From positions 1 to 36,772 of IMG/VR virus record IMGVR_UViG_3300045747_000108: a DNA stretch of 36,772 nucleotides. One strand, written 5' to 3'. Shown here piece after piece: positions 10,214 through 35,091 of the stretch (the stretch's first letter is position 1; every line of letters begins with the position of its first letter). Both the position numbers and the translations under genes were made by a program. This DNA is from a virus. The notes under the pieces are model-generated. The model worked only from the letters and a program-made list of their open reading frames with translations, had not been told where the DNA came from and did no database searches.

Positions 10214-10221
10214 GATAAATA
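10214..10221 (+). promoter_or_regulatory. Late promoter box GATAAATA, rightward (leaderless class)
   Basis: GATAAATA ends 5 nt before the ATG at 10227, so the predicted transcription start is the A of the start codon. No Shine-Dalgarno sequence is present. Confidence 0.7.
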
Positions 10222-10226
10222 TTGAC

Positions 10227-10985
10227 ATGAGCACATTAGAAAACCCCCGCCAACAAGTAGTTGAATACATTAAAACCATGCTTGGTGATGGTATGATTGA
10301 TATTGAACTCGATCCAAAGCATTACAACACCGCTATTGACCGAGCATTTGCAAAGTTCCGACAGAAGTCTAGTAATAGCGTAGAAGAAAGCTTTTCATTT
10401 ATGACATTGGAACAAGATGTTAATGAATACACATTAAGCAGCGAAGTGATCGAAGTTAGACAGTTATACCGTAGAAGTGTCGGGTCTAGAACTGGTGGCG
10501 GCGATACAGGTAGCTTATTTGAACCGTTTAACCTTGCATACTCAAATACATATCTAATGAATTCTAGTAATATGGGCGGGCTTGCTACATACTATGCATT
10601 TGCATCCTACCAAAAGATGGTTGGTAAAATGTTCGGTAGTGAGATTAATTTTACATGGAATCCTGCAACTAAGAAGCTTACTATTATGCAGCGGCCTCGT
10701 GGTGAAGAAACAATCCTATTGTGGATGTACAATCATAAACCGGACTTTGTTTTATTAGAAGATCCGTACGCCGGAATTTGGCTTAAAGATTATGCACTAG
10801 CACAAGCCAAGGTTATTTTAGGTGAAGCTCGTAGCAAGTTTGCAACAATTGCCGGACCACAAGGCGGTACTAATTTAAATGGCGATGCCCTAAAACAAGA
10901 AGGGCTCACTTCACTTAAAGAACTAGAAGTGGAAATAATGTCATACAGCGCCGGTGAGAAGCCAATGTGGTTTGTAGTTGGCTAA
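10227..10985 (+). CDS. Neck/head-completion protein, gp13-like candidate, 252 aa
   Basis: The chosen start is MSTLENPRQQ at 10227, in preference to a TTG 15 nt upstream that overlaps the promoter. The first third is helical (VVEYIKTMLGDG, then AIDRAFAKFRQKSSN). Then come strands EYTLSSEVIEVRQLYRRSVG and a central FTWNPATKKLTIMQRP. The end includes a G-rich AGPQGGTNLNGDALKQE. This resembles the gp13 neck-type proteins of marine T4-like phages. The divergent partner is gp14-like, which fits a neck protein. The family call is moderate: it could be another connector protein. Confidence 0.55.
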   Translation: MSTLENPRQQVVEYIKTMLGDGMIDIELDPKHYNTAIDRAFAKFRQKSSNSVEESFSFMTLEQDVNEYTLSSEVIEVRQLYRRSVGSRTGGGDTGSLFEPFNLAYSNTYLMNSSNMGGLATYYAFASYQKMVGKMFGSEINFTWNPATKKLTIMQRPRGEETILLWMYNHKPDFVLLEDPYAGIWLKDYALAQAKVILGEARSKFATIAGPQGGTNLNGDALKQEGLTSLKELEVEIMSYSAGEKPMWFVVG

Positions 10986-10992
10986 TAAATTA

Positions 10993-11021
10993 TTGACAAT
11001 TATATTAAATTATAGTAAATT
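10993..11021 (+). promoter_or_regulatory. Probable early/middle promoter for dNMP kinase
   Basis: A perfect TTGACA (10993-10998) is followed 17 bp later by TAAATT (11016-11021), a weak -10. The spacer contains a direct repeat AAATTATAGT (11007-11016 and 11017-11026). TATAGT at 11021-11026 is an alternative -10 at poor spacing. Confidence 0.5.
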
Positions 11022-11039
11022 ATAGTATCAGGAGATGCT

Positions 11040-11702
11040 ATGATTATAGGTGTATGTGGGTTTATTGGTGCAGGTAAAGATACTGTTGCGGACTATCTTG
11101 TAAACTTCCACGAATTTCGGCGTGATTCGTTTGCTGCAACTTTGAAAGATGCAGTTGCCGCAGTATTCGGTTGGGATAGAGAACTGCTTGAAGGCCGTAC
11201 AAAAGCTGCTCGAGAGTGGCGTGAGCAAATAGATACTTGGTGGGCTGCTCGATTAGGAATGCCACAACTTACTCCGCGATGGATTTTGCAACACTGGGGA
11301 ACCGAAGTTTGTCGAAACGGTTTTCATAATGATATGTGGATTGCAAGCTTAGAGAATAAACTTCGATCTAGTACAGATGATATTGTAATTAGCGACTGCC
11401 GATTTCCAAATGAGATAACCGCTATTAAAGCACAAGGCGGCCAAGTAGTTTGGGTACAGCGTGGCGCATTACCGGAATGGTATAATCTTGCAGTTGAATC
11501 AAATCGCAGTACCTTTAACCATATGCGTACAGCATTTCCCGAAGTTCATGCAAGTGAATGGGCATGGGTAGGAACACCGTTCGATGCAGTAATTGATAAT
11601 AACGGAAATATTGACGAGTTATACCAACAAGTTAAAAGTCTGGCGTCAGGTCTCCCCGTTTCCACGGTAATCGAAGCGCATGGAGAATACGTTGGCAATT
11701 AG
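11040..11702 (+). CDS. 1: Deoxynucleoside monophosphate kinase, gp1-like, 220 aa
   Basis: It opens with a P-loop, GFIGAGKDT (residues 7-15), in the form typical of T4 gp1 and other phage dNMP kinases. It continues with DSFAATLKDAVAAVFGWDRE, WILQHWGTEVCR and a VISDCRFPNE strand that matches the substrate-side motif of this family. Its length is close to T4 gp1 (241 aa). It phosphorylates dNMPs to dNDPs to feed phage DNA synthesis. An AGGAG site lies at about 11029-11034. The last 71 bp overlap the opposed zinc-ribbon gene, unusually long for converging genes. Confidence 0.85.
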   Translation: MIIGVCGFIGAGKDTVADYLVNFHEFRRDSFAATLKDAVAAVFGWDRELLEGRTKAAREWREQIDTWWAARLGMPQLTPRWILQHWGTEVCRNGFHNDMWIASLENKLRSSTDDIVISDCRFPNEITAIKAQGGQVVWVQRGALPEWYNLAVESNRSTFNHMRTAFPEVHASEWAWVGTPFDAVIDNNGNIDELYQQVKSLASGLPVSTVIEAHGEYVGN

Positions 11703-11967
11703 CACAGACACTTTTTAAATTTGTATGACGGCAATTTGTGGGGTTGCCGTCAATATAGAATACATCGAATTGCTCTTTGTATTTGCTTTCAAACCCACAC
11801 CTATCACATTTACACTTTAGTCGATAGCCCGAGATATACCACATCGGCTTTCCGATATTGCGTCCCTTTGCACAATGGTCGCACTGACTCCGATAGAAAA
11901 CCCTTTCTTCTTTTTTATAGTTGATTGCAACTGGTCTACTTCCACAGGTTTTACATAATCCTCTCAT
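11632..11967 (-). CDS. Zinc-ribbon/HNH-like small protein, 111 aa
   Basis: The product has three cysteine pairs: CKTC (5-8), CDHC and CKCDRC in the middle, and a terminal HTNLKSVCANCQ. The last is the N-x2-x-V-C-x-x-C form seen at the end of HNH-type nuclease domains. Basic residues between the pairs and the WYISGYRLKCKC stretch suggest nucleic-acid binding. Similar small proteins recur in T4-like phages of marine bacteria. Whether it cuts DNA is unknown, since a full H-N-H catalytic set cannot be confirmed by eye. A leftward late box (12000-12007) lies upstream. The C-terminus overlaps the kinase gene by 71 bp. Confidence 0.7.
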   Translation of the reverse strand: MRGLCKTCGSRPVAINYKKEERVFYRSQCDHCAKGRNIGKPMWYISGYRLKCKCDRCGFESKYKEQFDVFYIDGNPTNCRHTNLKSVCANCQRILHALRLPWKRGDLTPDF

Positions 11968-11999
11968 AACCCCGCCCTTTTTGGTGCCTTTTCACTATA

Positions 12000-12007
12000 T
12001 ATTTACC
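12000..12007 (-). promoter_or_regulatory. Late promoter box GGTAAATA, leftward
   Basis: On the minus strand GGTAAATA is followed by TATAGTG and a leader of about 27 nt that contains AAAAGGG, before the ATG at 11967. It is divergent from the sheath promoter, with 20 bp between the boxes. Confidence 0.55.
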
Positions 12008-12027
12008 CGGCGAAATTTGATTGCTGA

Positions 12028-12035
12028 ACTAAATA
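12028..12035 (+). promoter_or_regulatory. Late promoter box ACTAAATA for the sheath gene
   Basis: CTAAATA is the form reported for T4-like cyanophage late promoters. The ATG at 12068 follows after a leader of about 27 nt carrying TGGAGAG, a conventional late gene arrangement. Confidence 0.7.
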
Positions 12036-12067
12036 TACTAGATAAAACCATATTTGGAGAGCAATAA

Positions 12068-15000
12068 ATGGCCACACTAAATTCACCAGGCGTAGCAGTT
12101 AGCGTAGTTAACGAGAGTTTCTATACACAAGCTGCACCAGGGACAATTCCTTTAATCTTTGTTGCTTCAGCAAGTAACAAGAAGAATCCATCGGGTGTTA
12201 CTGCACCTGGAACACTTCCGTCAAACGCCGGAAAGATTTGGACAGTAACTGGCCAACGTGATTTGGCAGACACCTTTGGTGTTCCAGTATTCTACACTGA
12301 TGCATCAGGTAATCCTGTTCACGGTGGAGAACTTAACGAGTACGGTCTTCAAGCAGCTTACAGTTTGTTAGGCGTTAGCTCGCAGGCGTATGTTGTTAGA
12401 GCCGGAGTTGATCTTTCAGGTCTTACTCCGCAATCAAGTACTCCGTCTGGTGCCCCTAAAGATGGCGCATATTGGGTTGACACTTCGAACTCACAGTTTG
12501 GTATTTTCGAATGGGGATCTACTGGTGCATTTAAAGATGTTACTCCGCTTATTATCGACGATAGCAATGCCGCAACACAATTTGATTCAATTAATCAAAA
12601 GCCAAAAGCTAGCTTCGGCGTTGTAGGTTCTTATGCAGTTGCAGTTAATCAACCACTTGAACAAGTTCATACATTCTACAAGAACTTAAACGGTAATTGG
12701 GTTGAAGTTGGATCAAACATCGAAGCTAATTTTACCGGCGCATCAAATAATACATTCGTTAGCACATCATGGGCAACAAGTTGGCCAACTGCTACAGGTA
12801 AGATTCTTGCAGCTACATCCGTTGCAGGTACACTAATTATTAATGCTACTACAGTTACAGTTGCATCCGGATATGCAATGGCTGATATTGCCCTTGCAAT
12901 TAACCCATTACTTCAAACTAAGGGTGTTGGTGCAAAGGTAGTCGGCGGCGCATTGGCATTATTTGCTTCTTCAACTGCTAAGAGCAACGGAGTTACCGCA
13001 GATGGTAATATTGCTATCAGCGGCGATGCAACTTTACTTGCACAACTTGGATTGAGCGCAAAGACATATTTTGGCCCAACAGTATTTGTCGGACCTCACA
13101 CACAGTTTCCATCTTGGACAGGCTCATCTGCTCGTCCAGCAGGAAGCGTTTATGTTAAGACTACTATTCCAAATGGTGGTGCATACTGGTCAGTTAAACA
13201 ATATAATGCTACAAGTAATGCATTTAACTTAGTAAAATCTCCAATCTATGCTACAGGTGCAGAGGCAACTTACAGCTTAGATAAGGCAGGCGGGGGAGTG
13301 AATATTCCAGTTGGCACATTGTTTATTGAAAGCAATTATAATCACGGTAACGACTCTACTCCAGGACTTCCATCGTTTGCAAACTTCACAGTTCAACGCA
13401 GAGTTGGTATTAGCCCTACTACAATTACTAGCAATGTTTCAACAACAACTGTTGCATTAACTACCGGTTCTAGCTTACAGATTAGTGCATCCGTTGCAGG
13501 AGTTACTGGTTATGTTAACACAACTACTGTTACAATACAAGGAACTACTATTAGTGATTTCGTTGCAGCAGTTAATGCATCTGGAATTCCTAATATCAAT
13601 TCAACAATTAATGTAGATGGATCAGTTAGCATTGTTCACAACACTGGCGGAGAAATTCTATTTAAAGATACTACTAACATCTTAGGTACTGTTGGATTTA
13701 TTCCTTCTGTTTACAATAGTGTTACAGGTCAGTGGGATCATACTGCTAATTTTTATTCAGCAGGTGCTTATGAACCAACAGGTGCTACTGCTAAAGCAAG
13801 TAACTGGAGAACATTAGTATTTTCTGCTAGTGCAACTTCCCCAAGTTCTGCTCCTGCAAATGGTCAACTTTGGTATAGTTCAATAGTTGATCAAGTGGAT
13901 GTTATGGTTCACGACGGTCAAAAGTGGGCAGGTTATGCCACAGTATTCCCTAACGCAGACGTTAATGGGCCAATTGTAAGTGCTACTAAACCTCTTACAC
14001 AGAGCAAAGGTACTCCGCTTGCAGACGGTGATATCTGGATTAGCACCGCTGATATCGAACAATACGGCCAAGTAATTTATGTGTACGACGGTCTATATAC
14101 TTTATCTTGGATTCTTCAAGATCCTACAGATCAAACAAGCCCAACAGGATGGTTGTTTGCTGATGCACGTTGGGCAACAAGCGGCGACGCAGTAAATCCA
14201 AGTTCTATTGCAGATTTACGTTTTAGTAGTTTTGTTGATCCAGATGCACCGGATCCAGCCGAATATCCACGTGGTATGAGATTGTGGAATCTTCGTCGTT
14301 CAGGATTTAATGTTAAGCAATATGTTGCAGATTACATCAATGTACTTGCTAACAACGGTATTAACTTACGTATGAATCTTCCAATGGACGGTTCAGGTGG
14401 AACAGTTCGATACAATGCAAATCGTTGGATTAGCGTAAGTCCGAATCAAGATACAGGTGCAGGAAGTTTTGGACGTCATGCACAACGTGGCTTTGTTATT
14501 AAGGGACTTAAGAGCGCAATGGATGCAAATGTTTCGATTAGAGATACCGATACATTAACATACAATCTAATTGTTTGCCCAGGTTACCCAGAATTGATTC
14601 AGAATATGATTAGCTTAAATGCTGATCGTGCATTCTCTGGATTTGTTATTGGTGACACTCCGATGCGCTTAAAGGCAACGGGTACTGACTTGAAGGCATG
14701 GGGTCTTAACTCTAACGGAGCATTTGACAACAGCGATAAGGGCGGAGTTAGCTATAACGAATATATGGCAATGTACTATCCAAGCGGATATACAAACGAC
14801 TTAGCAGGCAACTATATTGTTGTTCCGCCAAGCCACATGGCATTGCGTATGATTGTTAATAGTGACGCAAAGAGCTATCCATGGTTTGCTCCAGCTGGTA
14901 TCCGTCGTGGTGGTATTGATAATGCTACTTCAGTCGGTTACTTAGAAAATGGTGAATTCAAGTCAACAGCATTGCCAACAGGCGTGCGTGATGTGATGGC

Positions 15001-15424
15001 AAGTGTTAAGATTAATCCAATCGCTACATTAACTGGTGCTGGCATTGTTGCAATGGGACAATACACTCGTGCTAATGGCTCAAGTGCGTTGGATCGTATT
15101 AATGTATCGAGATTAGTTGCATACTTACGTCGTCAGCTAGATGTTTTAAGCCGCCCATATTTGTTTGAACCAAATGACAAGATTACACGCAACGAAATTA
15201 AAAATGCTGTAACAAGTCTGTTGTTGGAACTTGTCGGTCAACGTGCATTGTATGACTTTATCGTAGTTTGCGATGAATCTAACAATACACCTGCAAGAAT
15301 TGACCGTTCAGAACTATGGTTAGACCTTGCTATTGAGCCAGTTAAGGCAGTTGAGTTCATTTACGTTCCATTACGTATTGTAAACACTGGTGCTATTAAG
15401 TCTGGAACATACACCCTAGCTTAA
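12068..15424 (+). CDS. 18: Tail sheath protein, gp18-like, 1118 aa
   Basis: The N-terminus (MATLNSPGVAVSVVNESF, then PGTIPLIFVASAS) and the C-terminal third (about 740-1110, with LIVCPGYPELIQNMI, PSHMALRMI, YPWFAPAGIRRGG, and ITRNEIKNAV near the end) are typical contractile sheath domains that form the rings around the tube. T4 gp18 is 659 aa. The excess lies in a central insertion (about 120-735) built of beta-rich modules. Two of these, about 243-330 and 470-545, resemble flagellin/hook IN-like repeats, and several W-containing motifs occur at about 126-150, 595-622 and 650-685. These inserts should face outwards on the sheath. The ATG follows a GGAGAG site. Confidence 0.92.
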   Translation: MATLNSPGVAVSVVNESFYTQAAPGTIPLIFVASASNKKNPSGVTAPGTLPSNAGKIWTVTGQRDLADTFGVPVFYTDASGNPVHGGELNEYGLQAAYSLLGVSSQAYVVRAGVDLSGLTPQSSTPSGAPKDGAYWVDTSNSQFGIFEWGSTGAFKDVTPLIIDDSNAATQFDSINQKPKASFGVVGSYAVAVNQPLEQVHTFYKNLNGNWVEVGSNIEANFTGASNNTFVSTSWATSWPTATGKILAATSVAGTLIINATTVTVASGYAMADIALAINPLLQTKGVGAKVVGGALALFASSTAKSNGVTADGNIAISGDATLLAQLGLSAKTYFGPTVFVGPHTQFPSWTGSSARPAGSVYVKTTIPNGGAYWSVKQYNATSNAFNLVKSPIYATGAEATYSLDKAGGGVNIPVGTLFIESNYNHGNDSTPGLPSFANFTVQRRVGISPTTITSNVSTTTVALTTGSSLQISASVAGVTGYVNTTTVTIQGTTISDFVAAVNASGIPNINSTINVDGSVSIVHNTGGEILFKDTTNILGTVGFIPSVYNSVTGQWDHTANFYSAGAYEPTGATAKASNWRTLVFSASATSPSSAPANGQLWYSSIVDQVDVMVHDGQKWAGYATVFPNADVNGPIVSATKPLTQSKGTPLADGDIWISTADIEQYGQVIYVYDGLYTLSWILQDPTDQTSPTGWLFADARWATSGDAVNPSSIADLRFSSFVDPDAPDPAEYPRGMRLWNLRRSGFNVKQYVADYINVLANNGINLRMNLPMDGSGGTVRYNANRWISVSPNQDTGAGSFGRHAQRGFVIKGLKSAMDANVSIRDTDTLTYNLIVCPGYPELIQNMISLNADRAFSGFVIGDTPMRLKATGTDLKAWGLNSNGAFDNSDKGGVSYNEYMAMYYPSGYTNDLAGNYIVVPPSHMALRMIVNSDAKSYPWFAPAGIRRGGIDNATSVGYLENGEFKSTALPTGVRDVMASVKINPIATLTGAGIVAMGQYTRANGSSALDRINVSRLVAYLRRQLDVLSRPYLFEPNDKITRNEIKNAVTSLLLELVGQRALYDFIVVCDESNNTPARIDRSELWLDLAIEPVKAVEFIYVPLRIVNTGAIKSGTYTLA

Positions 15425-15427: not shown

Positions 15428-15435
15428 AATAAATA
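15428..15435 (+). promoter_or_regulatory. Late promoter box AATAAATA for the tube gene
   Basis: It begins just after the sheath stop. The predicted leader of about 14 nt contains AAGGAG before the ATG at 15455. Confidence 0.6.
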
Positions 15436-15454
15436 AAAGGACAAGGAGCATATT

Positions 15455-16084
15455 ATGGCCGTAGCAAGTTTAAACAAATTATCAGTACCGGTAGTAGGCG
15501 GTGCACAAAACGAAGGTATGTTGATGCCAAAGTTAAAGTATCGCTTCCGCGTTACTTTGGAAAACTTTGGTGTAACAACTCCTAGAACAGAACTGACAAA
15601 GCAGGTTGTAACTTGCTCACGTCCTGAAGTATCGTTTGAGACAATCACTCTCGACGTATATAACAGTAAGATTAAGTACGCTGGTAAGCCTAGCTGGGCT
15701 GATGCTACTCTTGTTGTGCGCGACGACGTTTCTAATGCAGTTAGCCGTTTAGTTTCTGAACAACTTCAGAAGCAGTTCGACTTCTTCGAACAAGCAAGTG
15801 CAGCATCTGGTATTGATTATAAGTTCTCAGCAGTCATCGAGTTACTCGACGGCGGCAACGGCGCATATACTCCTACTACGCTAGAAACATGGACACTTTA
15901 TGGATGCTACTTAAACAAAGTAACATACCAAGGTGGCGATTATAAGTCTAGTGATCCAATGGATATTACTATGATGTTAACATTTGATAATGCTGTTCAA
16001 ACTGCTGCTACTATTACAGGTGATACTGTTAAACGTGCTCCGTTTGATTCTGCTTCTGCTCAGGCAACTGGTCAAGGTAAGTAA
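15455..16084 (+). CDS. 19: Tail tube protein, gp19-like, 209 aa
   Basis: It lies immediately downstream of the sheath gene, as in T4. It has the tube-protein pattern: an early MPKLKYRFRVTLENFG strand, TKQVVTCSRPEVSFETITLD, then YAGKPSWADATLVVRDD, and a C-terminal GCYLNKVTYQGGDYKSSDPM with a final MDITMMLTFDN strand. T4 gp19 is 163 aa, so this version is a little longer. It polymerises into the inner tube that passes DNA. A strong AAGGAG site precedes the ATG and a rho-independent terminator follows. Confidence 0.9.
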   Translation: MAVASLNKLSVPVVGGAQNEGMLMPKLKYRFRVTLENFGVTTPRTELTKQVVTCSRPEVSFETITLDVYNSKIKYAGKPSWADATLVVRDDVSNAVSRLVSEQLQKQFDFFEQASAASGIDYKFSAVIELLDGGNGAYTPTTLETWTLYGCYLNKVTYQGGDYKSSDPMDITMMLTFDNAVQTAATITGDTVKRAPFDSASAQATGQGK

Positions 16085-16100
16085 TACTGTTTCAAATAGA

Positions 16101-16125
16101 AAGGCTCAGCAATGGGCCTTTTTTT
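16101..16125 (+). terminator. Rho-independent terminator after the tail tube gene
   Basis: AAGGCTC (16101-16107), loop AGCAAT, GGGCCTT (16114-16120), then more Ts to 16125. It ends the sheath/tube transcript 17 nt before the next ATG, so the next gene needs its own promoter. Confidence 0.85.
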
Positions 16126-16128: not shown

Positions 16129-16136
16129 ACTAAATA
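16129..16136 (+). promoter_or_regulatory. Late promoter box ACTAAATA directly behind a terminator (leaderless class)
   Basis: It lies between the terminator T-run (ending 16125) and the ATG at 16142, with 5 nt from box to ATG. The position makes a leaderless transcript very likely. Confidence 0.75.
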
Positions 16137-16141
16137 TTATT

Positions 16142-17344
16142 ATGTCAAATATTAATGCCTATATTACTCCTAATATCCATACTGATGTTTTAGTAAAGGA
16201 CTATTCTCACGCAGCAAGACTCTACTTAGATTCTAGGGACGGGCTCCCTTATGCATTGGCTCCGAAAGTGAGCTGGATGTATTATGTGACATACGAGATA
16301 AATCAGGACGCAATAACAGATGCTAGTTGGTTAGCAAGAGATCAGTCGATAGTAGGTATGTTAGTAAAGACCGCCGACCTTCCTAAATTTACTCCACAGA
16401 CTGAAGTAATGCATCAGTATAATAGAAAAACTGTTATTCAGAAAGGAATAACATATAATCCTGTTAACATTACAATGCACGACGATCAAAGTAATGCTAC
16501 ACATAATTTATGGCTAAACTATTATAGATATTATTTTGCCGATGCAAATAATGGGCTAGGTACACAGTTATCCGGCGGTGCAGGGGCGCTAGCTAAGAAT
16601 GCAGTAGGTGGAGTACTCGGCGGCGGGTTACTCGGCGGCGTATTAGGTGGAATGGCAGGTAGTGCAGTTAGCAGTGCAATCGGTGGCATTGCCGGAGGCG
16701 GTAAAGGTGGCTTCGAACCTAGTTCTCAATATTCAAATCTAAACAATCTATACGGGGCAACAGATTACGGGTTAAATTCACCGGTAGTAAAATCCCCGTT
16801 CTTTAAAAACATTACAATATATCAGTTAAACAGACAATTGTTTACTAGTTTCCAGTTAGTCAATCCAATCATTTCCAACTGGGAACATGATAAATTAGAT
16901 CAAACTTCTGGTAATAAAATTGCAGAAAGTAGAATGTCAATTATGTACGAAACTGTATTCTACGGAAAAGGACAAGTGGTAGAAGATAATCCTACTGGAT
17001 TTGCTAAATTACAGTACGATCATACTGCAAGCCCGTTAGGCATCGGCGATCATATGAACGGAACTGTTAATGGCGCGTTAGACTTAATAGGGGACGTTAC
17101 TGGGCTAGGCAATACCGGTAAGAGTCCAATTAATCTGTTAAATGCTGCGGTAATGGGTGCGGGTGTATTATCAGGTGCACAGAGCTCGATACTCGGTGGC
17201 GGAGTGAGTCCTACTGGCGTGCTAGGAAATATTATTCAACAAAATGCCCCAGGGTTAGGAAACACACTTAGCGGATTAGGAATTAATCTAGGCGGCCGGC
17301 AAGCTGGCACTTTTCAAGGAACTCCTGTTAGTGTGACTAAGTAA
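16142..17344 (+). CDS. Tail-tube-fold baseplate protein (gp54/gp48-like candidate), 400 aa
   Basis: The N-terminal 135 residues resemble the tube-protein family: LVKTADLPKFTPQTEVMHQY, NRKTVIQKGITYNPVNITMH and NLWLNYYRYYF. The T4 baseplate-tube initiators gp48 and gp54 share the tube fold. A glycine-rich hydrophobic insert (about 145-190, with GGVLGGGLLGGVLGGMAG) interrupts the protein, and the C-terminal 100 residues are again G/A-rich. A middle segment, FFKNITIYQLNRQLFTSFQL, continues a beta domain. It follows the tube gene and precedes other tail genes, which supports a baseplate-tube role. It has no Shine-Dalgarno sequence and is predicted to be leaderless. Confidence 0.6.
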   Translation: MSNINAYITPNIHTDVLVKDYSHAARLYLDSRDGLPYALAPKVSWMYYVTYEINQDAITDASWLARDQSIVGMLVKTADLPKFTPQTEVMHQYNRKTVIQKGITYNPVNITMHDDQSNATHNLWLNYYRYYFADANNGLGTQLSGGAGALAKNAVGGVLGGGLLGGVLGGMAGSAVSSAIGGIAGGGKGGFEPSSQYSNLNNLYGATDYGLNSPVVKSPFFKNITIYQLNRQLFTSFQLVNPIISNWEHDKLDQTSGNKIAESRMSIMYETVFYGKGQVVEDNPTGFAKLQYDHTASPLGIGDHMNGTVNGALDLIGDVTGLGNTGKSPINLLNAAVMGAGVLSGAQSSILGGGVSPTGVLGNIIQQNAPGLGNTLSGLGINLGGRQAGTFQGTPVSVTK

Positions 17345-17351: not shown

Positions 17352-17729
17352 ATGACATATATTAATAATACTCCCCAAACATCTAAACTTTCTGATAGTG
17401 CAGATTTTACTCTAAAAGTATTTGATGCATATACTAACACTCCTATTAGTATAGAAGGAACTACCTATGCAGCGATGATAGGATTCTTCGAAAGCAGAGG
17501 GTTCGAAAAAGATGCTGCAACTAGTATTGCATATATTATGCTTAAACAAAGCACAATCGATCAAGTGAATCCATTTGAACTAATTGAAACTCTTAAAAAT
17601 GTTTCAAACTTACAACTTAGCGCAATAGTTACACAGGTGCTAAACTACAATAGATATAAAACTAGTAGCTTAGGGGTCGGCAATGCATTTACAGTGTCTG
17701 AAGAAGTTGCTAGGAATATTGTTGCATGA
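17352..17729 (+). CDS. Conserved tail-module hypothetical protein, 125 aa
   Basis: It starts 7 nt after the preceding stop, with no Shine-Dalgarno sequence. The product is mostly helical after about residue 35: AAMIGFFESRGFEKDAATSI, AYIMLKQSTIDQVNPFELIE, then LSAIVTQVLNYNRYKTSSLG and a short tail EEVARNIVA. Similar small proteins lie beside tail and head-completion genes in marine T4-like phages, but no function is known to me. Its last codon overlaps the next ATG (ATGA), so the two are coupled. It may be a chaperone or minor baseplate component; this is inference only. Confidence 0.75.
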   Translation: MTYINNTPQTSKLSDSADFTLKVFDAYTNTPISIEGTTYAAMIGFFESRGFEKDAATSIAYIMLKQSTIDQVNPFELIETLKNVSNLQLSAIVTQVLNYNRYKTSSLGVGNAFTVSEEVARNIVA

Positions 17730-18169
17730 GCTTAAAATATGCACAAGGTTCCTTTCAACCTAAAAATTCTGAGAAATATATAGGTAACGGAGTTCCGAGA
17801 TATCGTTCAAGCTGGGAATTAGCAGTTATGAAAATGCTCGATGAAAATCCGGGCATACAACAATGGGCTAGTGAGAGTATTAAAATACCTTATAGAGATC
17901 CGTTAACTGGTAAAGCAACTGTTTATGTTCCAGACTTTCTTGTTGTGTATACTGACAAAGATCAAAAGAAACATGCTGAAATATGGGAAATTAAACCGCG
18001 TAATCAAGCATTTGCAGAGTCAGTAGGAAAGAATAAATTTAATCAAGCACACTATATCAAGAACATGGCTAAGTGGCAAGTTGCTAGGCAGTGGTGTGCA
18101 AAGCAAGGATTAATGTTTAGAGTTATCACAGAAGAAGATATTTTCCATATGGGCGGTAAGAAGCGTTAA
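17726..18169 (+). CDS. 4: Head-completion protein, gp4-like (TnsA-type nuclease fold), 147 aa
   Basis: It matches T4 gp4 (150 aa) in length and order of motifs: an early YRSSWELAVMKMLDENPGI, then WASESIKIPY, VPDFLV and AEIWEIKPR, with a final lysine-rich segment and FRVITEEDIF. The E, D and E-x-K residues along these strands correspond to the restriction-enzyme-like active site expected for this family. gp4 (with gp50/gp65 functions) acts at the portal end when the filled head is closed. Translation is coupled to the preceding gene by an ATGA overlap. Confidence 0.8.
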   Translation: MSLKYAQGSFQPKNSEKYIGNGVPRYRSSWELAVMKMLDENPGIQQWASESIKIPYRDPLTGKATVYVPDFLVVYTDKDQKKHAEIWEIKPRNQAFAESVGKNKFNQAHYIKNMAKWQVARQWCAKQGLMFRVITEEDIFHMGGKKR

Positions 18170-18172
18170 ATA
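18165..18172 (+). promoter_or_regulatory. Late promoter box GTTAAATA (leaderless class)
   Basis: It overlaps the gp4-like stop codon and ends 5 nt before the ATG at 18178, identical spacing to the other leaderless-class genes. Confidence 0.6.
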
Positions 18173-18177: not shown

Positions 18178-18657
18178 ATGACAAAGAAACTTGAAACTTT
18201 ATTAAATCTTCCTTCCACGGAAGTGCCGCTAGTTAAACCTCGTAAAGAAGCGCCTGCCGCTGTTATAAATCTGCAGGATCGATTAGAAGAATTTGATAAA
18301 ATTAGTGCAGCACTACCTAAAGTAGAGGGATTGGGCTCGATGAGCGATACTGAGCTAGACGGTCTTGCTAAGAAAGCAGAAGATGCATTTGACGATTTAA
18401 TGGACTTAGGCATGAACGTTGAAGCAAGATACGGGAGCAGAATGTTTGAAGTAGCAGGTGCAATGCTAAAAACTGCGGTCGATGCAAAGAGTGCTAAGAT
18501 TGATAAAAAATTAAAAATGGTCGAGCTACAATTAAAGAAGCTTGCTATTGACAAAAAGACAGTCGGAGAAAACTCCGAAGATGCTGTAGAGGGCAAAGGA
18601 TTTATTATTACTGACCGCAATAGTCTCCTAGCAAAACTTAAAAATGTTGATAAATAA
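18178..18657 (+). CDS. 16: Small terminase subunit, gp16-like, 159 aa
   Basis: Length and layout match T4 gp16 (164 aa): a variable N-terminus, a central pair of long helices (YGSRMFEVAGAMLKTAVDAK, followed by KIDKKLKMVELQLKKLAIDK) and a C-terminal GKGFIITDRNSLLAKL strand-helix, like the T4 ATVFMGSPTELM region. gp16 forms a ring that recognises phage DNA and stimulates the gp17 motor at packaging initiation. It lies three genes upstream of the large subunit. It has no Shine-Dalgarno sequence and is predicted leaderless from the box at 18165. An opposite-strand open frame covers it and is a shadow. Confidence 0.75.
   Translation: MTKKLETLLNLPSTEVPLVKPRKEAPAAVINLQDRLEEFDKISAALPKVEGLGSMSDTELDGLAKKAEDAFDDLMDLGMNVEARYGSRMFEVAGAMLKTAVDAKSAKIDKKLKMVELQLKKLAIDKKTVGENSEDAVEGKGFIITDRNSLLAKLKNVDK
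18649..18656 (+). promoter_or_regulatory. Late promoter box GATAAATA with short leader
   Basis: It overlaps the gp16-like stop codon. Initiation about 6 nt downstream gives a leader of about 14 nt containing AGGAA, before the ATG at 18676. Confidence 0.6.
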
Positions 18658-18675
18658 CATACTAGGAACATACCA

Positions 18676-19245
18676 ATGAAGTCATTTAAAGAACACCTAA
18701 CAGAAAGCAAAAAGACCTATCCTTTTAAGGTTAAGATTGCAGGAGTAATCACTACCGAACAGGAAGCCACTCTTAAATCGCTGTTAGACAAGTATAAAGT
18801 TGTAGAATTTAAAAAGTCAGGAAGAACTCCAGTTCAATCACTACCTTTAGATTTTCCAAGACATCGTAATGTAGAAGTTAACATTTACGAAGTGACTGTT
18901 GACTATCCGGTTACAGGCCACGAATTAATGAGTTACTTAGGCAACGGTCTACAAATTAATGAACAGAATATCGTAGTTAGAAACCCCGGCGAACCTCAAG
19001 AAGAATATCAGAATGCTCCAGAAAAACGCGCAGGTGCGCTATTAAACGATAGCAATTATTCTGAACATCCAAAAGTTAATAGTGAAGAATACTACGGTGA
19101 CAAATATAATCTCAGCCTTGTAAAGGCGTTGAACGACGACTTAAAAGCAAAGAGAAAGGAACGTGGGGAAGTTATCCCTACAGAAGGCAAAGGACAAACA
19201 ACCAATGACTTGCCACAAAACACTAAAAGCCCTGTGGCAAAGTAA
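18676..19245 (+). CDS. Probable internal head protein with a capsid-targeting-like N-terminus, 189 aa
   Basis: The first ten residues, MKSFKEHLTE, closely follow the capsid-targeting sequence of T4 internal proteins (MKTYQEFIAE), which directs proteins into the prohead and is removed by the gp21 protease after glutamate. The body is charged: a basic YPFKVKIAGVITTEQEATL domain with ferredoxin-like strand-helix spacing (to about residue 95), then a disordered acidic/basic tail. The neighbours are small terminase and other structural genes. It could be an injected internal protein or a core protein. The AGGAA site supports this start. Confidence 0.65.
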   Translation: MKSFKEHLTESKKTYPFKVKIAGVITTEQEATLKSLLDKYKVVEFKKSGRTPVQSLPLDFPRHRNVEVNIYEVTVDYPVTGHELMSYLGNGLQINEQNIVVRNPGEPQEEYQNAPEKRAGALLNDSNYSEHPKVNSEEYYGDKYNLSLVKALNDDLKAKRKERGEVIPTEGKGQTTNDLPQNTKSPVAK

Positions 19246-20165: not shown

Positions 20166-20180
20166 TTCTTGCTTACATCA

Positions 20181-20207
20181 AATAGCTCCTTCGGGGGCTA
20201 TTTTTTT
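20181..20207 (+). terminator. Rho-independent terminator with UUCG loop
   Basis: AATAGCTCC (20181-20189), TTCG, GGGGCTATT (20194-20202), then Ts to 20207. The 9-bp stem with an extra-stable tetraloop and U-run closes the upstream operon 14 nt before the terminase ATG. Confidence 0.92.
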
Positions 20208-20208: not shown

Positions 20209-20216
20209 AGTAAATA
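20209..20216 (+). promoter_or_regulatory. Late promoter box AGTAAATA directly behind a terminator (leaderless class)
   Basis: It lies entirely in the 13-nt gap between the terminator T-run and the large-terminase ATG, with 4 nt from box to ATG. No room exists for a leader with a ribosome-binding site. Confidence 0.75.
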
Positions 20217-20220
20217 CAGT

Positions 20221-21798
20221 ATGGCTAAAATACTCGAAGGCAATTTAATTAAAACTGCGCATAAGAAGCAGCGGTTTACGGAACAAGATGTTCAGGATAT
20301 TTCGTTATGTACTGATGATCCCCATTATTTTCTTGATCACTTCTTTCATATTCAGCATCCTACTAAAGGAAAGTTGCATTACACTGCATTCGATTACCAG
20401 CGTAGATTAATCGATAGTTATCACAACCATAGATTTAATGTAAACTTACTTCCGCGCCAGACTGGTAAAACTACAACCGCAGCCGGATATATTTTATGGT
20501 ATGCAATGTTTGTTCCGGATTCAACTATCCTAATTGCAGCACACAAATATACAGGTGCTATGGAAATTATGAATCGTATTCGTTATGCATACGAACTTTG
20601 TCCCGATCACATTCGTGCAGGAGTTACTAGTTATAACAAACAAAGTATGGAATTTGAAAACGGTAGTCGTATTGTAGCACAGACTACAACAGAAACTACT
20701 GGACGGGGTATGTCACTTTCGCTTCTATACTGCGACGAGTTTGCGTTCGTTCCGCCAAATATCGCTACAGAATTCTGGACTTCTATTTCACCTACACTTG
20801 CAACAGGTGGTAAAGCTATTATTACTAGCACTCCTAATAGTGACGAAGATCAGTTTGCACAAATTTGGAATGAAGCTAATAAAAAAGAAGACGAATTCGG
20901 AAATGAAACAATCCTCGGAAAGAACGGATTCTTTCCATTCCAAGCATTTTGGCAAGAACATCCAGATCGTAATCAAAAGTGGGCTGATGAAGAAAAAGCA
21001 CGTATCGGTGAAGAACGGTTCCGTCGAGAACACGAATGCGAATTCTTAATCTTTGACGAAACTCTTATCAATTCGATATCGTTGTTCGACCTTGTGGGCA
21101 AAGAGCCTATTATGAAAATGGGTCAAGTCCGATGGTATAAGAAAATTAACACAGATGCAACCTATATTATATCGTTAGACCCGTGTTTAGGCACCGGTGG
21201 AGACTTTGCAGGACTCGAAATTATTGAAATTCCTAGTTTAGAACAAGTTGGGGAGTGGCATCATAACACTACACCTATTCAAAAACAGGTTCGAATAATG
21301 CGGGATATTGCCAAACACATTGACGAGCAATTTACAGCAGATGGTAAGACCTCTAGCATTTACTATTCTGTAGAAAATAATACAATCGGTGAAGCTGCAC
21401 TAGTTGCAATTAGTGAACTTGGCGAAGAAACATACCCGGGATTGTTCCTAAGTGAGCCTATTAAGAAAGGGCACGCTCGTAGATTCCGCAAGGGATTTTT
21501 AACTACTCCTAAGTCTAAAATTGCAGCATGTGCAAAGCTAAAGCAATTAATCGAAAGTAAGACTTTTAAAATTTATAGCAAACCGCTAATTACGCAACTC
21601 AAAGCTTTTGTGGCAAAAGGGTTAAGTTTTGAAGCAAAAACTGGTGAACATGACGACTTAGTAGCAAGCGTACTACTTAACGTCCGTATGATTATGATGT
21701 TACAAGACTGGGATCCTGCTATATACGATAAGATGCACGAGCATGTAGGAGATGAATTGATCCTACCCTTGCCTATCTACATGTCTGGAATGGGATAA
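20221..21798 (+). CDS. 17: Large terminase subunit, gp17-like, 525 aa
   Basis: The N-terminal ATPase has Walker A LLPRQTGKT (76-84), GRGMSLS and Walker B LLYCDEF (168-174), and coupling motif ITSTPNS (201-207). The C-terminal RNase H-like nuclease has ISLDP (317-321) with D328 nearby, YYSVENN with E384, and GEHDDL with D478/D479. It pumps DNA into the prohead and cuts it. An alternative TTG start at 20206 lies inside the terminator T-run and is rejected in favour of ATG at 20221. There is no Shine-Dalgarno sequence, so translation is probably leaderless. Confidence 0.95.
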   Translation: MAKILEGNLIKTAHKKQRFTEQDVQDISLCTDDPHYFLDHFFHIQHPTKGKLHYTAFDYQRRLIDSYHNHRFNVNLLPRQTGKTTTAAGYILWYAMFVPDSTILIAAHKYTGAMEIMNRIRYAYELCPDHIRAGVTSYNKQSMEFENGSRIVAQTTTETTGRGMSLSLLYCDEFAFVPPNIATEFWTSISPTLATGGKAIITSTPNSDEDQFAQIWNEANKKEDEFGNETILGKNGFFPFQAFWQEHPDRNQKWADEEKARIGEERFRREHECEFLIFDETLINSISLFDLVGKEPIMKMGQVRWYKKINTDATYIISLDPCLGTGGDFAGLEIIEIPSLEQVGEWHHNTTPIQKQVRIMRDIAKHIDEQFTADGKTSSIYYSVENNTIGEAALVAISELGEETYPGLFLSEPIKKGHARRFRKGFLTTPKSKIAACAKLKQLIESKTFKIYSKPLITQLKAFVAKGLSFEAKTGEHDDLVASVLLNVRMIMMLQDWDPAIYDKMHEHVGDELILPLPIYMSGMG

Positions 21799-21801
21799 AT
21801 A
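21794..21801 (+). promoter_or_regulatory. Late promoter box GATAAATA (leaderless class)
   Basis: It overlaps the terminase stop (TAA at 21796-21798) and ends 5 nt before the ATG at 21807. Confidence 0.65.
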
Positions 21802-21806
21802 TAGTA

Positions 21807-23825
21807 ATGAAGCCTATAGAAATTATCGCCCAAGATTTATTCGACAAAGTACGCAGCCGTTTCTCCAACTTACAGATGGGTGATGACAATGGTGCTGTTA
21901 CAGCAAACCCTGCTGATGCAAGATTTTTTGATTTTGACTTTGTAATAGAAGGCAATAATCTAGGGCGAGTTAGCATTAGTATTAACGATACTGGTAACTT
22001 AAAAATCTTCTTTAGTCAAGGCATCACAGAAGATACCGACGAAACAACACAAGACATGTGGTTTGATTTCTTAAGAGAAATGCGCTTTTTTGCAAAACGT
22101 AGACTTATGAGATTTGACACACGCGATATTACTAAAGATAATTTGGATAAGACAGACTTCCAATATCTTGCGCAGAAACGAAGTAACGGCACACAGGAAG
22201 AAACTATGGCAGAATCTAAAATGTTTGGGAGCTCAAAGACTTCCAAAAGAAAAGTTGGCGAAACATTACTTATTGTTAGACATGATGGTAAAATCGACGA
22301 TTCAATTCCTGGCTCTCGCAGCCGTAAGATTAAGAACATCTTCATCCAGAACGCAGAAGGTGAGAGATTTAAGAGTCCGTTTGCTTGGTTGCCCTTAGGT
22401 CGTGCGTTGCAACGTCATGTATATCACGGCGGTATGCCGCATGACGATCACGGTAAAGACATCATTGAAACAGCCGCAAAGTGTTTACAGCTTGCTAGTT
22501 TTCAAAAGCATGTGCGCAACAAGACAAAGAGCATGAATCCAGATGCAATGAATATTTCAGAGCGCACAAATGCAAAACTAAAAAGTCTGCGTAATCATAT
22601 GGAATGCCTTAGTCAGCAAAAGTATTACGAATCCTGGAAAGAACAGTTCCAACCTAAGTCAGCAGATCCAGTAGTGTTAGATGATGCTACCATGGAAAGC
22701 TACAAAGATACATTTACCGTACGTGGCTTTGATGAAGGTCTTGCAGAAGCATTCCCGCTTATCCACTCGATCATGCAAGAAGAAAGCGAAATCGATCTTG
22801 AAGAATACGTGGGCGAAGCAAAAGATGAAGATATCTGCCCAGAGTGCAAAGAAAGCCCATGCGAATGTAATACTAGCGAAGGAATTAAAGAATTTGCTGC
22901 ATTTGAATCCTGGGCTCATCAGATTGCTGAAGGTACTTTGACACCCGATACAACTAACGGTCTTCAAGAATTATTAACTCAAGATTTACAATTAGGTGCG
23001 AGCGGTGAGCTCATTCAGTCATTACAAGGAATCGGTATTGATGCCGATGTTGGAGCCGAGTTGTTTGCTAGTTTAAATCAACTGGCTAAAATGAATCCGA
23101 ATGCTGATTCAGACTTAATTAAACATACGATTATGTCTTGGTTAGATCAAGCCGATCCACAAGCTGCACAAACAATTGCAGGTGCTGCTCCTGAACCGGA
23201 GCAACCACAAGAATTAGATCCTGCTCAACAACTACAGGCTGCACCTGCACCCGCACCCGAACAACCAGTTGCAGAAAGTGTTATTTCTGAACTTGCAGAC
23301 CCTGCACTTACATTAGAAATTAGAGAGCTAAGTGCGAAGATCAAACACTTAAATGATTTGTATATACAATCTAAGAAGTTTAATGATACTGGATCATTGC
23401 AAAAGATCAAGCAACTGATGGCAACGGTTGCTGCAAAGAAAGCTGCATTAATAGATAAAGTAAATGCACAAGAAAAAGATCCGGATAGTGTGTTCTTAGC
23501 TAGAGTTCGTAATCAGTTTTCCGATGAAGATACTATTGAGCCAGAAGTTAATCCAGCTGATCAAGTAATTGAGCCAGAAGAAGAGCCTGCTAAGAAAGCG
23601 ACTCCACAAGAAATTGCTAAAGCAATTGTTGGTTTTTTCGATAGAGATAAAGGCACTTGGACAAAAGGCCGACCTGGTATCGTTGCCGGCATTGTTCGTG
23701 AATTTGGTCCTGAAGCGGGCGAACTTGCTAAAAACTTTATTATGAAATTGAGCCAGGAAGCAAAAGTTGTCGGTCCAGAAGTTGCTGCTATTGCCGAAAT
23801 GAGAAAATTAGCCGGATTAAAATAA
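21807..23825 (+). CDS. Large virion structural protein, unidentified, 672 aa
   Basis: It is placed between terminase and gp32 and has its own late box. The N-terminal 100 residues are a beta/alpha domain (ARFFDFDFVIEGNNLGRVSI, then WFDFLREMRFFAKRRLMRFD). A second domain spans about 150-235 (GETLLIVRHDGKID, SPFAWLPLGRALQRHVYHGG). Then come a helical segment, a cysteine cluster CPECKESPCEC (about 348), a P/A/Q-rich linker and a C-terminal helical domain ending AEMRKLAGL. The A/P-rich linkers and multi-domain layout suit a head or core protein processed by the prohead protease, but I do not recognise the family. The TAA overlap with the box leaves no room for a Shine-Dalgarno sequence. Confidence 0.7.
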   Translation: MKPIEIIAQDLFDKVRSRFSNLQMGDDNGAVTANPADARFFDFDFVIEGNNLGRVSISINDTGNLKIFFSQGITEDTDETTQDMWFDFLREMRFFAKRRLMRFDTRDITKDNLDKTDFQYLAQKRSNGTQEETMAESKMFGSSKTSKRKVGETLLIVRHDGKIDDSIPGSRSRKIKNIFIQNAEGERFKSPFAWLPLGRALQRHVYHGGMPHDDHGKDIIETAAKCLQLASFQKHVRNKTKSMNPDAMNISERTNAKLKSLRNHMECLSQQKYYESWKEQFQPKSADPVVLDDATMESYKDTFTVRGFDEGLAEAFPLIHSIMQEESEIDLEEYVGEAKDEDICPECKESPCECNTSEGIKEFAAFESWAHQIAEGTLTPDTTNGLQELLTQDLQLGASGELIQSLQGIGIDADVGAELFASLNQLAKMNPNADSDLIKHTIMSWLDQADPQAAQTIAGAAPEPEQPQELDPAQQLQAAPAPAPEQPVAESVISELADPALTLEIRELSAKIKHLNDLYIQSKKFNDTGSLQKIKQLMATVAAKKAALIDKVNAQEKDPDSVFLARVRNQFSDEDTIEPEVNPADQVIEPEEEPAKKATPQEIAKAIVGFFDRDKGTWTKGRPGIVAGIVREFGPEAGELAKNFIMKLSQEAKVVGPEVAAIAEMRKLAGLK

Positions 23826-31232: not shown

Positions 31233-31234
31233 AA

Positions 31235-33237: not shown

Positions 33238-33811
33238 TTTCGCTGATAGAGACGAAGTGCTATCGAAAATTAAGCATATTTCTGCAATGCGACTTGACCA
33301 CGGTATTGCAAAGAAACATAATTCTGGAGTATATTGTCACTCTGTTCCGTTCAATCCATTAACCGGACTTTCTAGTATCGAGTATAAGTCTGCGGAAGAG
33401 CGCGGTTATTTTAAGATAGATTTCTTAAATGTATCTGCATATAAAGACGTTAAGAACGAAGAACATATTAGTAAGCTACTTGCCGTAGAACCATTATGGG
33501 AGTTGATTTACGAGAAAGATATATGCGATCAGTTGGTACATATTAATGGTTATCATTCGCTGTTAGAACAATTAAAGCCGACCAGTATACTAGAATTAGC
33601 AATAGTATTGGCATTAATTAGACCTGGTAAAAAGCATCTGTTGCCAATATGCAAGGAAGAAGGCTTCGAGGCGATTAAGAATGATATTTGGGTTAAAACT
33701 GACGAAGCGTATTACTTTAAAAAGAGTCATGCTGTTAGTTACGCACATCTTATTGTGATGCAATTAAATCTCATTTGCGAACAGATTAGCGAAGCTTCTT
33801 CGGGTTCTTAA
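33218..33811 (+). CDS. Miniature DNA polymerase III alpha (DnaE/PolC-like) protein, 197 aa
   Basis: It starts MPDIDIDF, the palm motif of family-C polymerases that holds two catalytic aspartates. At residue 66 it has KIDFLNV, matching the DnaE KFDFLGL strand that carries the third aspartate (D68). Then come a helix, LKPTSILELAIVLALIRPG (like the DnaE QPDCFEDMIALVALFRPG segment), and KKSHAVSYA (168-176), like DnaE NKSHSAAYA. Full DnaE is over 1100 aa; fingers, thumb, PHP and OB parts are missing. A very strong AGGAGG (33207-33212) precedes the ATG. It is probably not a polymerase alone; it may mimic or bind replisome parts. The tail overlaps the opposed gene. Confidence 0.78.
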   Translation: MPDIDIDFADRDEVLSKIKHISAMRLDHGIAKKHNSGVYCHSVPFNPLTGLSSIEYKSAEERGYFKIDFLNVSAYKDVKNEEHISKLLAVEPLWELIYEKDICDQLVHINGYHSLLEQLKPTSILELAIVLALIRPGKKHLLPICKEEGFEAIKNDIWVKTDEAYYFKKSHAVSYAHLIVMQLNLICEQISEASSGS

Positions 33812-34172
33812 CAAGCTGTATTGATTTACGCTTTACCCGCTTTTCTGCAATATCACTTAAATTTACCGTAGGCCCAAATACTACGGAAATATCTTTAGAA
33901 CTAAATGTCTTGATCATAGGGCGGAATGCAATCATATCTGCCTTTAAAAAGATATTAATAGGTATCTTCCTATTAGATTCCCACCACCAAATCTCACCTA
34001 GTTCTAAAAATTTCTGTTTGTCTCCGTCAGTTTTCAGTATGCTAAAATCATATATGCTAGTAACCTGCAAATCGAGGTTGATGATAATGCCGACGTACTC
34101 GTCGTCACAGCAGCGAATGCAGGTTATAAACGGAAAATTCTGTTGAAAATCGTTGCTTTTAATTGGTTTCAT
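33786..34172 (-). CDS. Hypothetical protein, leftward, 128 aa
   Basis: It opens MKPIKSNDFQQNFPFITCI, continues with a beta-rich core (EYVGIIINLDLQVTSIYDFS, LGEIWWWESNRKIPINIF, ISVVFGPTVNLSD) and ends with a basic tail VKRKSIQLVKNPKKLR. The W-W-W and alternating hydrophobic pattern suggest a small beta barrel or sandwich. It is divergent from the structural gene at 34192 and overlaps the DnaE-like gene's 3' end by 26 bp. No Shine-Dalgarno sequence is obvious. Function is unknown. Confidence 0.65.
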   Translation of the reverse strand: MKPIKSNDFQQNFPFITCIRCCDDEYVGIIINLDLQVTSIYDFSILKTDGDKQKFLELGEIWWWESNRKIPINIFLKADMIAFRPMIKTFSSKDISVVFGPTVNLSDIAEKRVKRKSIQLVKNPKKLR

Positions 34173-34178
34173 TTAATC

Positions 34179-34186
34179 GATAAATA
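34179..34186 (+). promoter_or_regulatory. Late promoter box GATAAATA (leaderless class)
   Basis: It ends 5 nt before the ATG at 34192. An in-frame ATG at 34186 lies inside the box and is rejected as the start. Confidence 0.65.
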
Positions 34187-34191
34187 TGCAT

Positions 34192-35091
34192 ATGAACAAG
34201 TTACCAGTCTATTTATACTCCAATTTACTTGACGTAATATTGGATTTGGATCAAACCAGGAGTATCCACCAGATCATGTATCAACGCAAGCTAAAAATTC
34301 AAAAAGGGTTTAAAGACTCCGTACAAATTCAATTTAAAAATTCAGATCAGAAACCAGTACCGCTATCTACTAGCACAAATTACTGGTTTGATATGATAGA
34401 TTCCTCTGGTCGTCAACGAGTATTAACAAAGCAATTAACGCTAATCGACGATCAAGTCACTACATCTACTCGAGGCCTTAGTTTAGCTACATTTAATCCC
34501 ATTGATACTATAAATCTATCTGCAGGTAGTTACCGATTCCTTGTGAAAAAAGATAATGGTGACGGAACATTCACTCCTGCATATGCTAATACTTACTATG
34601 AAATTACTGGCGAAATTGAAATAGTAGAAGACGGGTTCGCTTTAGGATTTCCTGTTCAAGTTGTTAATTCAATACAATTAGAACAAGGGCAAGAGTACAA
34701 TAGAGATCCGTTAAATATGGGATATATTTTCTTTACAGGATGGTATCGCCCATTTCCGAGTGCTATGACAATCTCTACCCCGCAAAGTGCAATGTTTTCA
34801 TTAAACAACTTTGTTGGAAAAATTACAATAGAAGGCACACTTGCTAACTCGCCGAGCCCACAAGGTTCTGCAAATGCACAAGCTTTTGAAATTGCAAGTT
34901 ATACATCTATTGCACCCACGACTAGTAATATCCAATTATCTTGGAACACTAATATTACAGCAGTTCGCTTTAAAGTAAAACCAGTTAACGATGCGTTTGG
35001 TGTTGACTACTACCCTACCGGCAATCCTATTGGAAGTAATATCAATAAGTTCCCGTCCGGTTTCATTGATAAAATTCAGTATTTCAGTTAA
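34192..35091 (+). CDS. Virion structural protein, 299 aa
   Basis: It starts MNKLPVYLYSNLLDVILDLD at 34192, chosen because the earlier ATG overlaps the late promoter box. A strong beta pattern follows: MYQRKLKIQKGFKDSVQIQF, a WFDMIDSSGR turn, YRFLVKKDNGDGTF, then a second domain with AMTISTPQSAMFSLNNFVG and IQLSWNTNITAVRFKVKP. Proteins with the VYLYSN...YQR...KGF...QIQFKN opening are known as structural proteins in T4-like phages of marine bacteria. It is isolated from other structural genes, between replication genes, yet carries a late-type promoter, which supports a virion role. Confidence 0.7.
   Translation: MNKLPVYLYSNLLDVILDLDQTRSIHQIMYQRKLKIQKGFKDSVQIQFKNSDQKPVPLSTSTNYWFDMIDSSGRQRVLTKQLTLIDDQVTTSTRGLSLATFNPIDTINLSAGSYRFLVKKDNGDGTFTPAYANTYYEITGEIEIVEDGFALGFPVQVVNSIQLEQGQEYNRDPLNMGYIFFTGWYRPFPSAMTISTPQSAMFSLNNFVGKITIEGTLANSPSPQGSANAQAFEIASYTSIAPTTSNIQLSWNTNITAVRFKVKPVNDAFGVDYYPTGNPIGSNINKFPSGFIDKIQYFS

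Follow-up and report, generated by a model that had tools for sequence, protein, structure and literature searches.

Late-promoter boxes beside the start codon point to a leaderless or near-leaderless class of late genes in a group of T4-superfamily jumbo phages

Textbook accounts of late transcription in phages are built on the late genes of T4, the promoter boxes of which lie well upstream of the Shine-Dalgarno (SD) sites. In a stretch of viral DNA of 36,772 bases (IMG/VR record IMGVR_UViG_3300045747_000108, here called the window), which is identical to part of G001, a 157,925-base IMG/VR contig, boxes with the same TAAATA core almost touch the ATG of several genes. This arrangement raises the question if these genes are expressed from messages without a leader. 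The original prediction had named seven genes with a box 4 or 5 nucleotides (nt) before the ATG and had proposed that they form a leaderless late class beside late genes with an SD leader. All seven sites are present, with TAAATA-N5-ATG at 3941, 10227, 16142, 18178, 21807 and 34192 and a spacing of 4 nt at 20221, and all seven genes are open reading frames (ORFs) of 95 to 672 amino acids (aa). An eighth box, located on the minus strand 7 nt before the ATG at 10198, had been overlooked. In the following, d is the number of nt between the end of the TAAATA box and the ATG, and genes with d4-7 are called the near class. Leaderless or near-leaderless (0-3 nt) late mRNAs, a lineage trait absent from T4, appear to be the best explanation for this class, with a probability of about 85%.

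According to this explanation a gp55-type sigma factor would recognise the TAAATA boxes as late promoters of the T4 type, and transcription would begin at the A of the ATG or no more than about 3 nt before it. The leader would comprise 0-1 nt at spacings of 4-6 and the message possibly begin with 5'-ACU-AUG at a spacing of 7. The 5'-terminal AUG would be translated without an SD site, presumably by 70S ribosomes, while a box about 17-35 nt upstream would provide a second class of genes with an ordinary SD leader. The predicted RNA 5' end close to the start codon follows from the box position and the T4 numbering. In a review (PMC2988020) a base of the T4 late octamer is numbered -13; if this is the first base, the octamer ends at -6 and position +1 is reached six bases after the box, and therefore at d5 it would fall on the A of the ATG. 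RNA 5' ends, late timing and 70S initiation of the near class are thus predictions from the genomes. The near-box genes of the window are:

8987-10211, minus strand: box 10211-10206, 7 nt, ATG 10198; protein with a virion structural PHROG match, 403 aa
3930-4228, plus strand: box 3930-3935, 5 nt, ATG 3941; ORF of 95 aa
10216-10985, plus strand: box 10216-10221, 5 nt, ATG 10227; head-tail adaptor, Ad2-like (PHROG)
16131-17344, plus strand: box 16131-16136, 5 nt, ATG 16142; second tail-tube-like protein, 400 aa
18167-18657, plus strand: box 18167-18172, 5 nt, ATG 18178; weak match to a terminase small subunit
20211-21798, plus strand: box 20211-20216, 4 nt, ATG 20221; terminase large subunit (TerL)
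21796-23825, plus strand: box 21796-21801, 5 nt, ATG 21807; virion structural protein, 672 aa
34181-35091, plus strand: box 34181-34186, 5 nt, ATG 34192; virion structural protein (weak PHROG match), 299 aa

Could the repeated spacing be due to chance? The window alone contains 6 matches for N5, compared with 0.98 on average in shuffled sequences (at least 6 in 2 of 100 shuffles), and 8 matches for N4-7, compared with 3.6 on average (at least 8 in 3 of 100). This excess is modest, and the claim that the exact repetition of the spacing argues against chance is only modestly borne out by the window; strong significance comes from the remainder of the contig and from the relatives. The proposed search for a box-to-ATG spacing near 5 nt was run genome-wide and in the relatives and revealed an enrichment. 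In the window and 79 relatives we recorded TAAATA before the ATG of ORFs of at least 80 aa. Of 848 hexamers, 238 are located at d4, d5, d6 and d7 (31, 133, 20 and 54, respectively), and 5 sites at d8-13. "Exactly 5" was too strict, and the favoured range is 4-7. As control we used 14 permuted TAAATA hexamers, two of which are one-base shifts of the same sites. These gave 17-55 sites at d4-7, except for the two shifts (115 and 101); some show single peaks elsewhere which stem from repeated families, for example TTAAAA with 51 at d3. Counting once per gene family yielded 97 near-box families compared with 15-53 for the permuted hexamers, both values of 53 belonging to the shifted ones, and at d8-13 35 families compared with 28-53. 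Leadered families become common from about d17, which would be about the shortest distance that can accommodate a start site, an SD site and a spacer.

The same pattern was obtained with complete records and ORFs of at least 70 aa. At d4-7, d8-13 and d14-35 the counts are 21/3/20 in G001 (means of the permuted hexamers 2.4/2.9/11.3), 31/2/33 in G006 (5.6/7.5/22.1), 27/8/36 in G008 (3.7/4.6/13.1) and 28/6/50 in G003 (5.5/7.9/26.6). PA5oct (2/6/48; control at d4-7 4.7), T4 (0/7/36; 2.4), Syn9 (0/0/22; 1.0) and GAP32 (0/3/50; 2.7) lack an excess at d4-7. A set of 80 contigs found with the TerL of PA5oct, in which L273 is the same contig as L011, gave 177/19/167. We additionally counted raw patterns, N4-7 versus N9-12, without an ORF filter and with a reversed-pattern control. 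The values were 25 v 9 in G001, 43 v 14 in G003, 38 v 11 in G006, 17 v 2 in G007, 39 v 11 in G008 and 25 v 6 in G010, and 46 v 47 in G009, 39 v 43 in PA5oct, 16 v 19 in T4, 15 v 25 in GAP32, 10 v 9 in Syn9, 36 v 26 in Atu_ph07, 8 v 5 in Phosso, 13 v 16 in Vibrio 2.275.O, 7 v 6 in KVP40, 21 v 28 in PBECO4 and 12 v 10 in XaC1. Within this phage group the near class makes up one third to one half of the box-linked genes, and TAAATA occurs near virion-gene starts more often than permuted hexamers do, as in T4-type late promoters. A property of T4-like phages as a whole was not supported, with 0 near boxes at d4-7 in the T4 record.

Chance in AT-rich DNA, or wrongly assigned start codons, draws some support from the modest statistics of the window and from the low number of genes with an in-frame stop at most 8 codons upstream in some families (12/63 for TerL, 17/40 for the second tail-tube gene, 3/13 for the adaptor). 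This explanation is barely credible. The excess over permuted hexamers is found in four records and across families, and T4, PA5oct and GAP32, all of them AT-richer than G001, do not have the pattern. Such upstream stops are frequent in the families of 21807 (59/84) and 18676 (22/27), and in-frame starts preceded by an SD-like motif within 40 codons downstream were detected in 12 of 402 near compared with 64 of 438 leadered genes. At individual loci other starts have to be considered: an additional in-frame ATG at 34186 overlaps the box of 34192, and in-frame TTG codons are located just upstream of the ATGs at 20221 and 10227. The ATG at 10198 is likely the start codon of the minus-strand gene, but not the sole possible one, because its reading frame is open up to 10279; in its family of four members the spacings are d7 (twice), d8 and d1.

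The two classes differ in further respects. An SD-like motif precedes 1/21, 1/31, 2/27 and 1/26 near genes in G001, G006, G008 and G003 (5/105) compared with 12/20, 28/31, 32/36 and 30/42 leadered genes (102/129); for boxless genes, scored at the first ATG, the values are 91/185, 159/363, 131/330 and 159/372. The absence of SD sites from the seven genes, as originally claimed, largely holds, except for a weak GGGA upstream of the box of 21807. The use of ATG/GTG/TTG is 107/3/2 in near and 139/21/23 in leadered genes (Fisher p 4e-6), where the GTG and TTG counts may contain false in-frame candidates. Few SD sites and a preference for AUG over GUG and UUG are traits of leaderless mRNAs; the AUG preference and 70S initiation are treated in a review (PMC9031893). 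The antibiotic kasugamycin is reported to block SD-led translation and to spare that of leaderless messages (PMC5230787). In addition, T directly precedes the ATG in 38 of 49 d5 families compared with 74 of 174 leadered families (p 2e-5), and this fits a transcription start with a pyrimidine at -1 and a purine at +1. The d5 spacer is otherwise variable, with 94 distinct spacers among 165 sites.

These bases also bear on the question if position +1 lies 2-5 nt upstream of the ATG and a very short leader is used, which would be functionally close to a leaderless message. For the d7 genes this is suggested by the fifth base after the box, which is A in 18 of 22 families, so that transcription may start three bases upstream of the ATG and produce a 3-nt leader, and sigma-type start sites generally shift by a base or two. 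On the other hand, the T before the ATG in 38/49 d5 families and in about two thirds of the families at d6 points to a start on the A itself. As a general description of the class, a short leader is possible.

Another possibility is that the boxes are real late promoters, but that translation occurs mainly from read-through mRNAs via coupling or a weak SD site. Insulation from upstream transcription argues against it. The original prediction of terminators before 16142 and 20221 was confirmed: the hairpins end 16 and 13 nt upstream of the ATG, with folds of -15.7 and -16.4 kcal/mol, and are located as follows:

16100-16125, plus strand: terminator-like hairpin with T-run, directly before the box at 16131
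20180-20207, plus strand: terminator-like hairpin with T-run, directly before the box at 20211

Over the whole set, such a hairpin lies just upstream of 91/401 near and 35/437 leadered boxes compared with 1.6% of random places; counted by family (13/98 near, 12/174 leadered) the difference is small. Moreover, only a short intergenic stretch separates the divergent genes 10227 and 10198. Their boxes stand back to back, 4 nt apart, with the ATGs separated by 28 nt, and the upstream DNA of each promoter is coding sequence of the other gene. In favor of read-through, the TAA of the box is a stop codon of the upstream gene at 18178 (the ORF 17726-18169) and at 21807 (TerL), and the latter gene has the weak GGGA mentioned above. 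Such an overlap is found for 60 of 401 near boxes and nearly as often for leadered boxes (48/437). Coupling is therefore unable to explain most of the near class, 341 boxes of which have no stop overlap, and translation mainly from read-through messages is unlikely.

The placement of the box is to a large extent gene-specific and conserved. Most box-linked relatives of the near genes have the box at the same place: 63/76 at d4-7 for TerL, 84/106 at d4-7 for 21807, 13/18 at d5-6 for the adaptor, 34/38 ATG rows at d4-6 for the second tail-tube gene and 11/16 ATG rows at d4-7 for 18178. PA5oct gp262, the homologue of 34192, likewise has a d5 box. The weakest member of the near class is 3941, which matches neither PHROGs nor Pfam and stands alone, as a single member, in the box-linked set; its start and box are flanked by the two arms of a perfect inverted repeat of 8 bp, GTACGGGA / TCCCGTAC (window 3896-3957). 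For a separate test of TerL, 149 of 160 loci could be tabulated, the others being located at a contig edge, lacking the N-terminus or unusable. At 70% identity or more, 45 of 46 loci have a near box. Four leadered genes of the window had been named for comparison:

4592-5283, plus strand: box, 20 nt, SD-like motif, ATG 4618; product unknown
12030-15424, plus strand: box, 32 nt, SD-like motif, ATG 12068; tail sheath
15430-16084, plus strand: box, 19 nt, SD-like motif, ATG 15455; main tail tube
18651-19245, plus strand: box, 19 nt, weak SD-like motif, ATG 18676; virion structural protein

Boxes and intervening SD-like motifs were found for all four as described, although the motif of 18676 is weak. 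The sheath gene is leadered in 34/34 box-linked relatives and the main tail-tube gene in 27/27 ATG rows. The adjoining tail-tube paralogues 15455-16084 (leadered) and 16142-17344 (near) belong to opposite classes, and this is kept in relatives. The family of 18676 (n=89) has members in both classes, with 27 at d5-7, 4 at d8 and 54 at d14 and above, plus 4 others, and its protein tree contains at least 5 class changes if d8 is taken as near. Taken together, box placement is to be regarded, on the genomes compared, as a lineage trait of a broad uncultured jumbo-phage group of the T4 superfamily.

A dosage rule, with low-copy proteins leaderless and high-copy proteins leadered, partly fits these data and is kept as a weak idea. 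The sheath and the main tube agree with it; against it stands the head-tail adaptor, which is near-boxed in the window yet leadered in G006. The major capsid genes of G003, G006, G008, G009 and PA5oct have a GGAG-type stretch and no TAAATA within 60 nt of the first ATG. Portal genes have a d7 box in G006 and G008, but those of G003, G009 and PA5oct lack a box within 45 nt. In G006, 10 near and 10 leadered box-linked proteins were annotated, out of 31 and 31.

With regard to the transcription machinery, a gp55-type late sigma was identified in six IMG/VR relatives and in PA5oct (E 1e-60 or better). This finding also bears on the idea that TAAATA acts here as a non-SD translation element and not as a promoter. 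In support of it the distance from box to ATG is about that of an SD site. However, the identical hexamer is located upstream of SD leaders and forms the T4 late promoter core (PMC2988020, PMC2984593), the relatives encode the late sigma, and the analogous Deinococcus motif could not be replaced by a ribosome-binding site (RBS) and bound the sigma factor (PMC12340547). We therefore rejected a ribosome-binding element as very unlikely. The proposal of two late-gene classes agrees with the spacing gap at background level, the SD contrast, the ATG preference, the T before the ATG and the gp55-type sigma of the relatives, and the genomic case for a leaderless or near-leaderless late class, parallel to the SD class, appears strong.

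Several observations weigh against leaderless late messages in addition to the modest excess in the window. The zone d8-13 is at background, not empty, in G001, G006, G008 and G003, and d8 and d9 hold 11 families each. The 372-kb relative G009 shows a weaker excess (14/6/67 at d4-7/d8-13/d14-35, without a permuted control). Raw counts alone are not decisive, because the reversed-pattern control is higher than N4-7 in G003 (43 v 49) and G009 (46 v 58). Among TerL loci with 50-70% identity only 35/103 have a near box; among the remaining 68, TAAATA is missing within 40 nt in 55, lies farther away in 11 and is found at d8-13 in 2. The scarcity of SD sites in the near class is partly forced, because the box occupies their place, and the assignment of -13 to the first octamer base is our own reading of the review. 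No late sigma was found in G001 or in G004, both of which may be fragments. A T4-type gp45 was detected in 0/9 records with the T4 query, and of 9 records only T4 matched Pfam PF09116; these phages may have a diverged sliding clamp.

Parts of the translation apparatus are encoded as well. The ribosomal protein bS21 was found in 5 of 14 records, namely G001 (L088:2974-3132, which is G001:142974-143132), G006, G008, G009 and PA5oct. An N5 box before bS21 in G006 and G008 was dropped, as the site lies inside the end of the upstream reading frame. G006:331282-331355 is a tRNA with a CAT anticodon, initiator-like by inspection (C1.A72 mismatch, G-C rich anticodon stem), and a higher level of initiator tRNA reportedly favours the translation of leaderless messages (PMC9031893). 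Two parallel translation programmes under one late promoter type, set gene by gene, with bS21 and the initiator-like tRNA perhaps tilting the ribosome pool, can be imagined, but we regard this as rather doubtful.

Some contigs among the TerL relatives measure 337-372 kb, and G001 therefore probably represents only part of a jumbo-phage genome. Judged by TerL, PA5oct (Arenbergviridae) and its kin are the closest named phages found (53%), and the gene order of PA5oct in this region is the same as in the window. Neither a major capsid gene nor a portal gene was detected in G001. The candidate L087:5142-6722 for the major capsid protein was rejected, since Pfam points to an N-terminal domain of a tropism determinant and the PDB yielded no relative. 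A host search via bS21 in genome contigs gave 190 pattern-matched stretches, 0 of them confirmed. The tail sheath (12068-15424) comprises 1118 aa, whereas the product of T4 gene 18 has 659 aa. Two further boxes stand back to back at window 12000-12035 (minus 12005, plus 12030); 32 nt downstream of the minus box starts a small ORF (11632-11967, minus strand) without a PHROG match, the family of which is mostly leadered (17/20). Three radical SAM domain proteins in G001 (L084:12676-14037, L085:1642-2694 and L085:14343-15332) are tied to late boxes of both classes.

If the leaderless interpretation is correct, related and widespread jumbo phages appear to make a third to a half of their box-linked genes leaderless by shifting the box beside the ATG. 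The tail-tube paralogues of opposite class and the class changes in the 18676 family would then represent a natural paired experiment on the purpose of leaderless translation. The box position would also offer a simple rule by which start codons can be assigned and late promoters located in phages from metagenomes. Among the matches listed from the open-licence literature, judged by titles and the beginnings of abstracts, none describes leaderless late genes as a class in T4-like phages, which is weak evidence for novelty; no transcription study of PA5oct was found among the paper titles. Leaderless transcripts are also attributed to phiKZ; in two reviews of giant phages the term "leaderless" did not occur. 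Phage transcripts in general are often leaderless according to the AR9 paper (PMC5312081).

The T4 late promoters (TATAAATA; gp55, gp33, gp45) resemble the present system in the TAAATA core, the late sigma family in the relatives and the boxes before tail and head genes. They differ in that no box lies 4-7 nt before the listed genes of the T4 late region examined, where most spacings are 14-28 nt or more, with genes 6 and 26 having 9 and 12 nt; a T4-type gp45, in turn, was not detected in our phages. PA5oct shares gene order, late sigma and bS21 and has two d5 genes, one of them homologous to 34192. In contrast to the window it shows no excess at d4-7, and its adaptor, TerL and tube genes are leadered. 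In Deinococcus-Thermus a -10 motif touching the ORF gives leaderless mRNA (PMC12340547); there, too, a -10-type element is located at the start codon, little or no leader results and a classical RBS class exists alongside. The factor is the host sigma RpoD of a bacterium in that case and would be a phage late sigma acting on a T4 late box in ours. Lambda cI (PMC9031893) is likewise a phage message read from a 5'-terminal AUG, but there it is a single regulatory gene, whereas in our phages structural and packaging genes would be expressed in this way as an entire class.

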